39,504 bases of DNA from assembly GCA_030039675.1 (NCBI GenBank), contig JASHVE010000086.1, forward strand, positions 1 to 39,504, given 5' to 3'. Below, one piece after another: positions 2,408-29,743 of the stretch (position 1 is its first letter; the number at the start of each line of letters is the position of its first letter). Position numbers and translations under genes: made by a program. Source of the DNA: Acidobacteriaceae bacterium (GTDB taxonomy: Bacteria > Acidobacteriota > Terriglobia > Terriglobales > Acidobacteriaceae). The notes under the pieces were generated by a model, which saw only the letters and a list, made by a program, of their open reading frames with translations, had not been told where the DNA came from and searched no databases.

Positions 2408-2787
2408 TTCTACTTGAGGCGGTTGAGTGCAATATTCGTGTTGATGCGCAAAGAGCGCAACGCTGACCAAGAAGCAGAAAAAATCAAGACCAGTAAAGCA
2501 ATAGCTCCATTCGTTATTGCTCCAACCCGCAATCGGAGCCGGCCCTCAGCGGTTGCTGTCCTGTCACCGGCTCACCGGAATTACCTTCTGATCGACAGGT
2601 TGCAGCGCTTCAAGCGAGTGCCCCATGCGCCGCGGCGCCGGTTACAACTTTTTGGTTGTTTCTCGACAGAACCGGAAAATCTTCCGCAAGAAATCAAATT
2701 GGAATTTGCTCATTGTCCGCAACACAAAATGAAGTTGCGCCGCTTTCCGCCGATTGAACAGATAGCAGCGAGTTGCCGGAGTGCGCC

Positions 2788-2907
2788 TAGAGAGCATTTT
2801 CGGAATACATATTGACTTTTTGAGAGCGGTGAAGGGTGGCTTTTTCTTGATGAAAAAGCCACTTGAGTTCACGCTTCCGGTCTACAGTAATTCCGAAAAT
2901 GCTATAG
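2788..2907. repeat. Palindromic element, subfamily A copy 1
   Basis: AGCATTTTCGGAAT ... ATTCCGAAAATGCT perfect 14-bp outer arms; inner hairpin GTGGCTTTTTC-TTGAT-GAAAAAGCCAC. Confidence 0.92.
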
Positions 2908-2957
2908 GCGGCGTGCAGCGACGCGTGTGCCTGGCTGGTGGCCGGAACGAGGATGCA

Positions 2958-3854
2958 ATGATCGAACGCACCGATCTGCTGGAGTCCGCGCTGGACAGCC
3001 TTCCCGACGGCGTGGCGGTGTTTGGCGCAGAGGGCAAGGTCGTGTGGTGGAACCACGCCGCGGAGGCCATCACCGGTTATGCCGGGATGGATCTGCCGGC
3101 GCAGCCGGTTGCTGCTGTGCTGGAAGGCCTGCTCGAGGGGAAGCAGCTCGCGGATCTGCATACCGGCTCGCAGGCGCATGCGGGGCGCGGAGCGCTGGTG
3201 CGGGTGAGGCACAAGCTGGGGCATGAAGTGGCGGTGATCGTGCGCGCGCTGATTCTGCGCGACGGGTTGGGCGATCGCATAGGGATGGCAGCCCTGTTTC
3301 ATCCCGCGGAGAGTCTGGAGGCGCTGCCGCGCGGCGACGCCGGAGAAAACGCCGACCTTGCGGCCAATCAAGTGGACCTGGAGGACCGGTTGAGCTGCGA
3401 GTTTGAGGACTTCCTGCACGGCGGCCCGCCGCTGGGCGTGCTATGGATTGGCGTGGATCAGGCGCACGAGTTGCGCAAGACGCACGGCGCCGCGGCCTGC
3501 CACGCCATGCTCGAGAAGGTACAGCATGCGCTAGCCGTCGGTTTACGGCCTTCGGAGCGGATTGGGCGCTTGGGTGAAGACGAGTTCCTGGTGATCGCGC
3601 ATGAGCGCACGCTGGAGGTGCTCGCGGGTCACGCGCAGACGCTGGCCGGGCTGGCGCGGACGGCCGACTTCCGCTGGTGGGGCGACCGGGTTTCACTCAC
3701 TGTAAGCATTGGTGCGGGACAGGCCGATGCGAGCCGCGACGAGACGCTGGCCCAGCTTCTCGATCGAGCGCGGAAGGCGATGGTCACGAGCATGCGCGAA
3801 GGAGGAAACCGCGTCGTGTGCGCGGCAGGAGAAAAGAAATGTTTGCCATCATAG
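2958..3854 (+). CDS. PAS / GGDEF-domain protein (GEDEF variant), putative diguanylate cyclase-like
   Basis: MIERTDLLESALDSLPDGVAVFGAEGKVVWWNHAAEAITGY is PAS-like; RIGRLGEDEFLVIA is a GGDEF variant. Upstream part of ORF 2781..3854 is element-derived, so an internal ATG at 2958 is preferred. Confidence 0.75.
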   Translation: MIERTDLLESALDSLPDGVAVFGAEGKVVWWNHAAEAITGYAGMDLPAQPVAAVLEGLLEGKQLADLHTGSQAHAGRGALVRVRHKLGHEVAVIVRALILRDGLGDRIGMAALFHPAESLEALPRGDAGENADLAANQVDLEDRLSCEFEDFLHGGPPLGVLWIGVDQAHELRKTHGAAACHAMLEKVQHALAVGLRPSERIGRLGEDEFLVIAHERTLEVLAGHAQTLAGLARTADFRWWGDRVSLTVSIGAGQADASRDETLAQLLDRARKAMVTSMREGGNRVVCAAGEKKCLPS

Positions 3855-9102: not shown

Positions 9103-10518
<1,416 letters not shown>

Positions 10519-10661: not shown

Positions 10662-10995
10662 GCGCCGAAACTGAGGCGAGAGACGCTGCCGCGCGCGTCG
10701 AAGATGGTCAGATAAGGTATTTATATTCAAATGCTTGCCGCAGGCTTTGCCGATACACCGGGGCGGAAAGCCGCTAAATTGGGCCAAATTGTGGCTAACT
10801 CTATGTAATCGTCTCTATTTAATGCTGTTATGGGTGGAGTGGCATGAGAATCACAGACCATGGCCAAGTGCGCATGGCGGAGAAAATTCCCACAGCACTC
10901 CCCGGAAAGTAACACTTTCGTGTTATGCGAGCTGCGGTACCGGGTTATTACTTCGGTGTGACTTTGCTCCCACCGTCGGGCCGGCTAGTGAAAAA

Positions 10996-11011: not shown

Positions 11012-11302
11012 AAATATGTTTGCGGGAACCGGAAAAACCCGGGCGCGAGAGGGCTTCCGGCGTCCTGCAAATTCCCGCTACTGCATGGGGCGAGGGGCGA
11101 AAAAGGAACCGCGAGACGTATCCAACAGGTCATCGGGCGATGCACCGAAATGGGTATTGGCAATTTCTATAAATCGTTTATTTAACTTATGTTGAGAACT
11201 ACCGATAGAGGGGTATAAAGCCAGAAAAGCGGGAGTGCCGAAACAGACTGCTGCTCGATGGCGGCGAAGTGAACTATGCGTCTCGAAGGGCTCGTTAAGC
11301 CG

Positions 11303-11353
11303 TGTATACGGCGCGTTCCACCACCTCAGAGCCCGCGTAAACAGCCGTGTACA
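11303..11353 (+). promoter_or_regulatory. Putative enhancer (UAS) dyad pair upstream of cpaA
   Basis: TGTATACGGC (11303-11312) and GCCGTGTACA (11344-11353), 9/10 inverted match; layout repeated upstream of flp1. Confidence 0.55.
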
Positions 11354-11413
11354 CTTCGTGGTCCTTGTGCCGGTAAGACTTTGATTTCAATGCCTTTCGG
11401 TCTGTCTGTGGTT

Positions 11414-11429
11414 TGGTGGGCCAATTGCT
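11414..11429 (+). promoter_or_regulatory. Sigma-54-type promoter candidate for the cpaA operon
   Basis: TGGTGGGCCAATTGCT: GG-N10-GC with TTGC -12, 48 bp before the preferred cpaA start. Confidence 0.55.
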
Positions 11430-11476
11430 TGAATGTGGCTACCACCCAGTACGGAGGCAGTAAAAGGAGCATGGGG

Positions 11477-11977
11477 ATGCACTCGTTTGCCTGGTGGCCG
11501 ACGCTGATCGTGGTAGCGGTGGCGACCTTCACGGATCTCCGATCCCGGCGCATCCCGAACTGGCTGGTGTTTCCTTTCCTGCTGGCGGGGATTGCGGTGA
11601 GCGGCTGGTTGAGAGGGTGGCATGGGATGGGGCAGAGTCTGGAAGGTTTAGGGTTGGGCGCCCTGCTGTTCGGGATTCTGTTTGTGCTGGGCGGCATGGG
11701 CGCGGGCGATGTGAAGCTTTGTGCCGCAATCGGGGCGTGGATTGGACCGGGACAGATGCTGATCGCGCTGGTGTTGACGGGCCTGGCGGGGGGCGTGATG
11801 GTGATCGGCTGGGCGCTTTATGCGGGATTCTTTCGGAACCTGTTTCAAGGGGCCGGGGATCTGGTGTTCGGTTGGAATAGCGGTGAAAGGGCGCAACTGA
11901 GCGATCCGAAACGGCGCAAGATGCCGTACGCGCCGGCGATCGCCATAGGCACGCTGATCTCGTTTTTTGCTAGGTGA
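11477..11977 (+). CDS. cpaA: Prepilin peptidase, CpaA/TadV type
   Basis: FTDLRSRRIPNWLVFPFLLAG and GMGAGDVKLCAAIGAWIGP A24 peptidase Asp motifs; start at ATG 7 nt after GGAG. Confidence 0.9.
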   Translation: MHSFAWWPTLIVVAVATFTDLRSRRIPNWLVFPFLLAGIAVSGWLRGWHGMGQSLEGLGLGALLFGILFVLGGMGAGDVKLCAAIGAWIGPGQMLIALVLTGLAGGVMVIGWALYAGFFRNLFQGAGDLVFGWNSGERAQLSDPKRRKMPYAPAIAIGTLISFFAR

Positions 11978-16873: not shown

Positions 16874-17064
16874 CGCGGAACTCGGTGGAACCAGCGACGC
16901 CTTGCATTTGTGCAGGCGCCGCTGCCAGTTAGAGAAGTCCCGCCGACCGGGGCAAGCCGTGCTGAAAGATCCCGCCCCGGCAGGCCGATTCGGCGGCGGG
17001 AGAGGTGTTGTGTCCTCTTCTGCTTCTCTGGATGGCAGAGCTGTCCAAGAAGGGATTTGTTTAC

Positions 17065-18114
17065 ATGCACGGGACGCAAGAGGCAAAACGGATTTTCGGC
17101 AGAACGGGGAGTGATGCGGTGGTCGACGTGCCGCTTCCCAGGGGGACTATGGAATCACGGACACATTGCGCCTACAACCAGACCCGGGAGTGTTTTCTGG
17201 GGCTGGAAGTTACGGCCGCCGATCTGTCGTATGCAGGAATCGTGGAGCTGATGTCCACGATGACATTGAGATCGGGCGAGGGCTTGTGGATCGTGCCGTT
17301 CCGCGGTATCCCCACCGCCGGCCTTCCGGCGCCCCTGGATCTCATTTATCTCGACGAGGATTGCCGCATCATCGATCTGGTGGAGTCGTTCCCGACGTTC
17401 CGCATCAGCTCTTCGAGCCCGCGCGCAACCAGCGTGCTGGCCCTGCCGGTGCACTCGATTTATTCGTCGCAGAGCCAGGCCGGCGATCAGCTGGTGCTGT
17501 GCATGGCCGAGGAGATGGAACAGCGGCTGGAGCGGATTGCGAATCTGCGCGGCGAGACGACGACGGTACAGAGCGCGGTGCTGCTCAGAGAAAAGCCGCT
17601 GTGGAGCGGAGGCCCCGGCCTGTTGGAGCTGGAGAACCACTCCCAGCAGGAATTCCTGTTATCGAGGGGCACGCATGAGATGTCGCTGGCGCGGCCGGGC
17701 GAGAACACGTCGAAGCCGCCGCGGCGGTGGCTGGAGCGGTGGTGGTCTCCTGATCCGCGCAAAGCTCCCCGCGATCTGCTGCCTGGCCTCGCGGCCTATT
17801 ACTGGAATGGCGCCGCGCCGGAGCCGCACGGCATTCGCGACATCAGTTCGTCGGGATTGTATGTGGTGACCGAAGAGCGATGGTATCCCGGGACGCTGGT
17901 CCTGATGACGCTGCAGAGAACCGATGTGGGCGAAGAGATCGAAGAACGGTCGATTGCAGTGCAATCGCGCGCGGTGCGCTGGGGCACCGACGGCGTAGGC
18001 CTGAAGTTTGTTTTGCCGGACGCGCAGGACGTGAAGCGCGGCCACAATCTGCTCACGGATGGAGCGGATAGAAAGGCGCTGGAACGCTTTTTGCAGAGGT
18101 TGAAAAAAATGTAA
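17065..18114 (+). CDS. DUF192-like / PilZ fusion protein
   Basis: N-part GEGLWIVPFRGIPTAGLPAPLDLIYLDEDCRIIDLVE resembles DUF192; C-part RKAPR ... RDISSSGLYVVTEERWYPGTLV fits PilZ RxxxR and DxSxxG. Confidence 0.75.
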   Translation: MHGTQEAKRIFGRTGSDAVVDVPLPRGTMESRTHCAYNQTRECFLGLEVTAADLSYAGIVELMSTMTLRSGEGLWIVPFRGIPTAGLPAPLDLIYLDEDCRIIDLVESFPTFRISSSSPRATSVLALPVHSIYSSQSQAGDQLVLCMAEEMEQRLERIANLRGETTTVQSAVLLREKPLWSGGPGLLELENHSQQEFLLSRGTHEMSLARPGENTSKPPRRWLERWWSPDPRKAPRDLLPGLAAYYWNGAAPEPHGIRDISSSGLYVVTEERWYPGTLVLMTLQRTDVGEEIEERSIAVQSRAVRWGTDGVGLKFVLPDAQDVKRGHNLLTDGADRKALERFLQRLKKM

Positions 18115-20693: not shown

Positions 20694-20811
20694 TAGAGCG
20701 GTTCCACAGTTGATGTGCCCTTGCCGAAGCCGCGGAAGGTGGCATTTTCTTGAGGAAGATGCCACTTTGCAGCAGTGGCTTCAGGACATAGCAACTGTGG
20801 AACCGCTGTCG
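20694..20811. repeat. Palindromic element, subfamily B copy 1
   Basis: Perfect 16-bp outer arms AGCGGTTCCACAGTTG/CAACTGTGGAACCGCT; inner GTGGCATTTTC...GAAgATGCCAC. Confidence 0.93.
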
Positions 20812-22344: not shown

Positions 22345-22461
22345 TCGAGCGGTTCCACAGTTGATGTGCCCTTGCCGAAGCCGCGGAAGGTGGCATTTTC
22401 TTGAGGAAAATGCCACTTTGCAGCAGTGGCTTCGGGATATAGCAACTGTGAAACCGGTGTA
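22345..22461. repeat. Palindromic element, subfamily B copy 2
   Basis: AGCGGTTCCACAGTTG ... CAACTGTGAAACCGGT; inner GTGGCATTTTC-TTGAG-GAAAATGCCAC. Confidence 0.92.
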
Positions 22462-25908: not shown

Positions 25909-26023
25909 AGCGGTCCCACAGTTGATATGCCCTTGCCGAAGCCGCGGAAGGTGGCATTTTCTTGAGGAAAATGCCACTTTGCAGCAGTGGCTTCGGGATA
26001 TAGCAACTGTGAAACCGCTGTAG
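25906..26023. repeat. Palindromic element, subfamily B copy 3
   Basis: AGCGGTcCCACAGTTG ... CAACTGTGAAACCGCT; inner GTGGCATTTTC-TTGAG-GAAAATGCCAC; first TAG is the stop codon of the DUF192 gene. Confidence 0.92.
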
Positions 26024-28695: not shown

Positions 28696-28785
28696 GGACG
28701 ATATTGTACCGATTGGCTGAAAAGCAGTGGATCGCACCGCGGCCACACTGCAATAACACACAGGTGGCATACACCTTTAGGTCAT

Positions 28786-28833
28786 GTATACGGCTCGCTC
28801 GTGGGAGAAGAACCACTGTAAACACGCGTATAC
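28786..28833 (+). promoter_or_regulatory. Putative enhancer (UAS) dyad pair upstream of flp1
   Basis: GTATACGGC ... TAAACAcgCGTATACAGC; same arrangement as upstream of cpaA. Confidence 0.55.
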
Positions 28834-28911
28834 AGCAAGGGTAGGCAAAAGCTCGCCAGATGAGATTGTAAGTGCTTCTTTCTTAAGAGACATTGCTTCA
28901 GAGACCCTGAA

Positions 28912-28927
28912 TGGCATGCCAGGTGCA
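28912..28927 (+). promoter_or_regulatory. Sigma-54-type promoter candidate for flp1
   Basis: TGGCATG-CCAG-GTGCA: one mismatch in the -24 box, GG-N10-GC spacing, 53 bp before the flp1 ATG. Confidence 0.65.
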
Positions 28928-28980
28928 TAGTAGGGGGTGCCCCGGCTGAGGCTGGGAATCAACTACTTGGAGAGATCGAG

Positions 28981-29166
28981 ATGAACAACCTTTTTCTGAA
29001 GATGTATGTTAAGGTCCAGGATTTCCTGAGCCGCGAGGAAGGCCAGGATCTGGTTGAGTACGCCCTGCTGATTACCCTGGTCGCACTGGCTGCCGTTTCC
29101 GGCATCAACAAGGTAGCCTCCGCAATCAACACCGTCTTCACCAACATTAGCAACACGCTTTCGTAA
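28981..29166 (+). CDS. flp: Flp/Fap-type pilin 1
   Basis: REEGQDLVEYALLITLVALAAVSGINKVASAINTVFTNISNTLS; GGAGAG RBS. Confidence 0.95.
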   Translation: MNNLFLKMYVKVQDFLSREEGQDLVEYALLITLVALAAVSGINKVASAINTVFTNISNTLS

Positions 29167-29404: not shown

Positions 29405-29590
29405 ATGCACGATCAGTTCTTAAAACTACAACTCAAGTTCTGGGAATTGATATACGACGAGAATGGCCAGGACTTAGTGGAATACGGTTTGATCGTGACA
29501 GCGATTGCGCTGGCGGCAATTGGCGGCATACAGCATTTTGCTTCAGCGGTCGCAACGCTCTTCAATAACATTGATAATTCCCTTTCGTAA
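29405..29590 (+). CDS. Flp/Fap-type pilin 2
   Basis: DENGQDLVEYGLIVTAIALAAIGGIQHFASAVATLFNNIDNSLS; start at MHDQF preceded by GGAG. Confidence 0.9.
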   Translation: MHDQFLKLQLKFWELIYDENGQDLVEYGLIVTAIALAAIGGIQHFASAVATLFNNIDNSLS

Positions 29591-29626: not shown

Positions 29627-29743
29627 TAGAGCGGTTCCACAGTTGATGTGCCCTTGCCGAAGCCGCGGAAGGTGGGATTTTCTTGCGGAAAATGCCACTT
29701 TGCAGCAGTGGTTTCGGGATATAGCAACTGTGAAACCGCTGTG
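29627..29743. repeat. Palindromic element, subfamily B copy 4
   Basis: AGCGGTTCCACAGTTG ... CAACTGTGAAACCGCT; inner hairpin with one unpaired change (GTGGgATTTTC). Confidence 0.92.

Follow-up and report, generated by a model that had tools for sequence, protein, structure and literature searches.

The window (the whole stretch of DNA that we analyzed, 39,504 nucleotides) carries a tad locus. The prepilin peptidase gene cpaA (11477..11977, plus strand; Pfam Peptidase_A24; start codon set from relatives) heads the tad assembly run cpaA-cpaE-cpaF-tadB-tadC. The 61-residue Flp-type pilin flp1 is encoded at 28981..29166 on the plus strand, and a second Flp-type pilin lies 3' of it at 29405-29587. 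On the minus strand, at 9103..10518, is the gene for an NtrC-type enhancer-binding protein with a degenerate N-terminal receiver, an AAA+ sigma-54 activator domain and a Fis-type helix-turn-helix. The activator domain (Pfam Sigma54_activat, 5.9e-68) has Walker A and B motifs and a GAFTGT loop, a form that differs from GAFTGA in its last residue and is found in 34 of 40 full-length sequences. The Pfam receiver model gave no match in this protein. In the receivers of the regulator and its orthologues, the Asp is kept in 40 of 42, Thr/Ser is replaced by Ala in 38, and Lys is replaced by Arg in 35. The genome also has a complete rpoN (AID, CBD and DBD).

Orthologues of the regulator occur in 34 of 40 same-genus genomes (E ≤ 1e-100). 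The linkage to cpaA extends further: six genomes from other genera of the family, and two from more distant members of the genus itself, have an orthologue at a distance of 0.4 to 2.3 kb from cpaA. Two further genes in or near the tad cluster encode a PAS-GGDEF protein (2781-3854) and a PilZ-domain protein (17005-18114), which suggests a cyclic-di-GMP link. Between the regulator gene and cpaA there is also a dyad, AACACTTTCGTGTT (10911-10926). A few relatives have similar dyads close to flp or cpaA, with 8 matches in 353 kb, some of them at overlapping loci, versus 0 to 1 in shuffles.

Dyads and predicted sigma-54 promoters upstream of cpaA and flp1

Upstream of cpaA, positions 11337..11354 (plus strand) hold an 18-bp dyad, GTAAACAGCCGTGTACAC, of the form GTAAAC-N4-GTGTACAC, which we predict to be the site of the regulator. 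It is rare and is kept in relatives. Its counterpart 5' of flp1 is TGTAAACACGCGTATACA at 28817..28834 (plus strand). Each dyad is preceded by a single GTATAC 32-33 bp to its 5' side. For cpaA, this left element is GCCGTGTATACGGC (11299..11312, plus strand; core at 11304-11309, 33 bp 5' of the dyad), and for flp1 it is TGTATACGGC (28785..28794, plus strand). An earlier note on this DNA had described the cpaA region as an inverted pair of 10-mers. The sequences and positions of that pair are right (TGTATACGGC at 11303-11312 and GCCGTGTACA at 11344-11353), but the spacing given, 45 bp from centre to centre, is wrong and should be 41 bp. A distance of 45 bp fits only the direct-repeat register AGCCGTGTATAC/AGCCGTGTACAC at 11298/11343; the GTRTAC cores are 43 bp apart at cpaA and 42 bp apart (GTATAC) at flp1. 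Two sites are indeed present, but the right-hand block is a complete dyad by itself, which is a better parse than a half-site. The TAAACA-N2-CGTRTACA block that the note reported as common to both upstream regions was found at 11338 (cpaA) and 28819 (flp1).

Within the window, dyads of this form are confined to these two places (expected, 0.01). A scan of the 4.67-Mb assembly found the dyad core pattern at only three places and the reversed control pattern at none. A search of the window against Rfam returned no match.

What lies downstream of the dyads? At cpaA, TGGTGGGCCAATTGCT (11414..11429, plus strand) has the GG-N10-GC spacing and TTGC-like -12 element that had been described, with GG at 11415-11416 and GC at 11427-11428. 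We predict that it is a -24/-12 sigma-54 promoter with a start near 11440. By consensus score alone this box is not significant, with 14 window sites as good and 11 expected. The conservation tests below are independent of the consensus weights used. The idea that the promoter is duplicated at flp1 holds for the matching dyad and left site, but the earlier note omitted flp1's own -24/-12 box, TGGCATGCCAGGTGCA (28912..28927, plus strand), which is much stronger than that of cpaA. Of all sites in the window, this predicted promoter, with an expected start near 28938, has the second-best consensus score, a level that shuffles are not expected to reach, and TGGCAC-type boxes occupy the equivalent place in relatives. 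The distance from the dyad centre to the predicted start is ∼94 bp at cpaA and ∼112 bp at flp1.

The best sigma-54-like match in the window is a different one, TGGAACGCTTTTTGCA at 18080-18095. It lies at the end of the PilZ-domain gene, 114 bp 5' of tadE, and has no dyad.

Conservation and spacing within the genus

To compare homologous loci, we aligned the cpaA upstream regions of 30 loci (the window and 29 same-genus genomes) using MAFFT. As the earlier note had anticipated, both half-sites were conserved: TGTATACG, GTAAACA-N2-CGTGTACAC and TTGG-N8-ATTGCW were kept between flanks that could not be aligned. At cpaA loci of regulator-bearing genomes, 25 of 31 had the full dyad and 3 more had a near-dyad, and most relatives had a GTATAC-like core 32-34 bp 5' of the dyad. 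Of 31 same-genus loci that have the regulator, 30 carry the motif TGG-N8-TTGCW 5' of cpaA, versus 1.4% of shuffled sequences. The cpaA box is thus significant on the basis of conservation, not of consensus. Two genomes have a small reading frame that separates the promoter from cpaA. The dyad was also found at 20 flp loci, with TGGCAC-type -24/-12 boxes downstream that scored 9-12 of 12; some of the flp loci listed encode the second or third of several consecutive pilins and lack their own site.

Across 40 same-genus genomes, the strict dyad pattern accounted for ∼87 sites among the matches listed, versus ∼10 for the reversed pattern. Most of the listed matches were 5' of cpaA or flp and, chance matches aside, the pattern is nearly confined there. 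The dyad motif could also serve to find more targets of the regulator. It failed as a marker beyond the genus, where it was found in 22 of 250 genomes, a background level with no tie to the regulator, and genomes of other genera that carry the regulator showed no enrichment of it. Upstream of cpaA in one genus outside this one, TGGATCGGCAATTGCW is preceded at 43-44 bp by a dyad of related form.

An additional element, overlooked by the earlier note, lies between enhancer and promoter. The sequence GTAAST-N2-TTGAWTT, found between the dyad and the -24 box, is the reverse complement of the IHF consensus. At cpaA the match is exact (WATCAANNNNTTR on the minus strand, AATCAAAGTCTTA; 11374..11386, 40 bp before the -24 box), and at flp1 just 7 of 9 positions match. 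At least 8 of 9 consensus positions were matched at 15 of 20 flp and 9 of 22 cpaA promoters, versus shuffled means of 2.0 and 1.2 and a maximum of 5. The element begins 39-42 bp 5' of the -24 box in nearly all promoters. The genome encodes two HU/IHF-family proteins, one of them nearest to IHF beta and slightly below the model cut-off.

The distances from dyad to promoter fell into classes of 66-68, 76-81 and 89-94 bp, and the intervals 69-75 and 82-88 bp were empty; relatedness of the genomes inflates these classes. One potential explanation is a face-of-helix requirement. We regard this as only suggestive, because the sequences are related and the two commonest classes differ by ∼12 bp, which is not exactly one turn. 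An exact helical repeat is not claimed, because the period fit was best near 13 and not 10.5.

A proposed Tad circuit and its alternatives

Can the regulator be lost while its predicted target sites are kept? Four same-genus genomes (G005, G021, G035 and G155) lack cpaA and also lack the regulator. In four others (G001, G002, G009 and G259) cpaA is present and only distant activators were found; in G001 and G002 the regulator gene is gone between cpaA and the next neighbour. A candidate stretch in G001, G002 and G009 was rejected as the regulator, and the gene is absent there. In three of these four cpaA-bearing genomes the GG of the cpaA -24 element is missing. TGG-N8-TTGCW was retained at cpaA in 1 of the 4, versus 30 of 31 with the regulator (Fisher P = 0.002, a value that overstates independence because the four genomes may be a single clade that descends from one loss). 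The two flp promoters seen in these genomes, those of G001 and G009, read AAGCACAACACTTGCT, a -24 element without GG, and their dyad is lost. All four genomes still have CGTGTACAC, the right-hand half-site at cpaA, and the IHF-like element; either decay is incomplete or these sites have another user. Loss of the regulator thus tends to go with partial or full decay of the promoter, which would make these genomes a natural experiment for the Tad circuit, possibly within one clade.

On the basis of these comparisons, we propose that a sigma-54 enhancer-promoter pair coordinates the Tad assembly and pilin genes through the regulator encoded at 9103-10518, a reading that we consider very probable. 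The Tad assembly operon would have its enhancer and promoter at 11299-11429, and the pilin gene flp1 would have a matching enhancer-promoter at 28785-28927. The regulator would bind the 18-bp dyads and probably also the half-site 32-33 bp 5' of each. An IHF or HU-like protein may bend the DNA at a site ∼40 bp 5' of the -24 box. The regulator, answering a presumed signal, would then act as an activator rather than a repressor: it would oligomerize, loop over, and spend ATP to open sigma-54 RNA polymerase at -24/-12. In this way the assembly machinery and the pilin would be made together. The earlier note had already read 11301-11429 as the upstream activating sequence and promoter of the Tad assembly operon. 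Every prediction of that reading that sequence comparison can address came out in its favor. The conserved sites, the constrained GG-N10-GC distance, the tad-linked regulator and the presence of rpoN all support it.

Could the promoters be sigma-54 dependent with a different activator of the genome at the dyads, the adjacent gene being linked for some other reason? Each genome has 12 to 33 activator candidates, the dyad resembles the TyrR and GcsR boxes of another activator class (PMC4894688), and cpaA half-sites survive where the regulator is missing. Against this, the regulator is linked to cpaA in many genomes and in other genera, it is absent together with tad, and the -24 GG decays where it is lost. 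We therefore consider a different activator improbable. Less probable still is a reading in which a repressor or a sigma-70 type regulator uses the dyads as its operators and the -24/-12 boxes arose by coincidence or play a secondary part. In its favor, the consensus score of the cpaA box is weak, and TTGACT-like hexamers lie slightly 5' of the box in some relatives. However, 30 of 31 loci conserve GG and TTGC with their exact spacing, the flp promoters have near-consensus boxes, the dyad-promoter distances are fixed, and the neighboring gene encodes a sigma-54 activator. Chance similarity in AT-richer intergenic DNA, to which the commonness of GG-N10-GC by itself might point, has a negligible probability and is already refuted by conservation, together with the genome-wide rarity of the dyad.

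The preferred reading, control of both promoters by the neighboring regulator, would give a lineage that has received little study a complete Tad-pilus control circuit in which operator, bending site and promoter are predicted to the base. A broader version of it is possible but doubtful, and we offer it tentatively. In that version, the degenerate-receiver, GAFTGT NtrC-type activator, perhaps phosphorylation independent, would govern a lineage-specific surface-appendage regulon and would use a single TyrR-like operator to drive Tad assembly, the scattered flp copies and additional surface operons in some species.

Known systems and other possible targets

Sigma-54 control of Tad-like pili is already known. 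In Desulfovibrio vulgaris, the mapped targets of the sigma-54 response regulator DVU2114 are a pilin gene and a pilus-assembly operon, and the authors call the pilin and downstream genes most similar to cpa/Tad (PMC3333781). The likeness to our regulator lies in these described targets, that is, in a sigma-54 type regulator of pilin and assembly genes; a point of difference is that DVU2114 is treated as a regular response regulator (PMC3333781). The layout of the operator also has precedents. The TyrR box (TGTAAA-N6-TTTACA) and the GcsR box (TGTAACG-N4-CGTTCCG) are both 18-bp dyads, as is the operator here (TGTAWAC-N4-GTWTACA), and GcsR also acts with an RpoN promoter (PMC4894688). Unlike the TyrR family, which has N-terminal ACT and PAS domains, the regulator here has a receiver-like domain; ACT and PAS domains were not found in it, and its match to the TyrR model runs through the AAA+ part only.

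The order enhancer, IHF site, promoter is standard (PMC7057263, PMC3897727). The orp operons of D. vulgaris, with an enhancer at -88 and -131 and the IHF consensus WATCARxxxxTTR, show the same order of enhancer, IHF site and -24/-12 box, but they are other operons under another regulator (PMC3897727), and IHF use in our case is inferred from sequence. In Pectobacterium, a two-component regulator adjoining the flp/tad cluster activates the cluster, which resembles the neighboring regulator here; the paper does not present that regulation as sigma-54 dependent, and a VasH mutant left flp/tad unchanged (PMC3767616). The text of Francke 2011 on sigma-54 is without Flp or Tad, and the Desulfovibrio sigma-54 regulome paper makes no mention of pili. 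Given DVU2114, the TyrR/GcsR layout and the standard order of elements, the kind of circuit is known, and the Tad circuit proposed here is a well-supported further case. In the open-access full text searched, we found no earlier description of this operator or regulator or for this lineage.

Are there targets other than cpaA and flp? The full enhancer-promoter anatomy was also found in two same-genus genomes, G020 and G030 (loci L109, L110, L111 and L112), 5' of other exported-protein genes. Their products are a secreted protein of 191 residues, with further exported proteins encoded after it, and a protein of 88 residues; a Pfam search of the proteins returned no family. Among other sites examined, two, in G008 and G014, look like chance matches. 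The third dyad in the genome of the window (L103:673-689, C464) lies 195 bp before a gene for a GAF-PAS histidine kinase. It has a weak -24/-12 box, TGGTTACTTTCGTGCT, and no left half-site, and we do not claim it as a target.

The tad region also contains a dispersed intergenic repeat, TTCGGGATATAGCAACTGTGAAACCG, with four copies (20780-20805, 22431-22456, 25992-26017 and 29713-29738) where none is expected. One of these copies adjoins a 14-bp hairpin.
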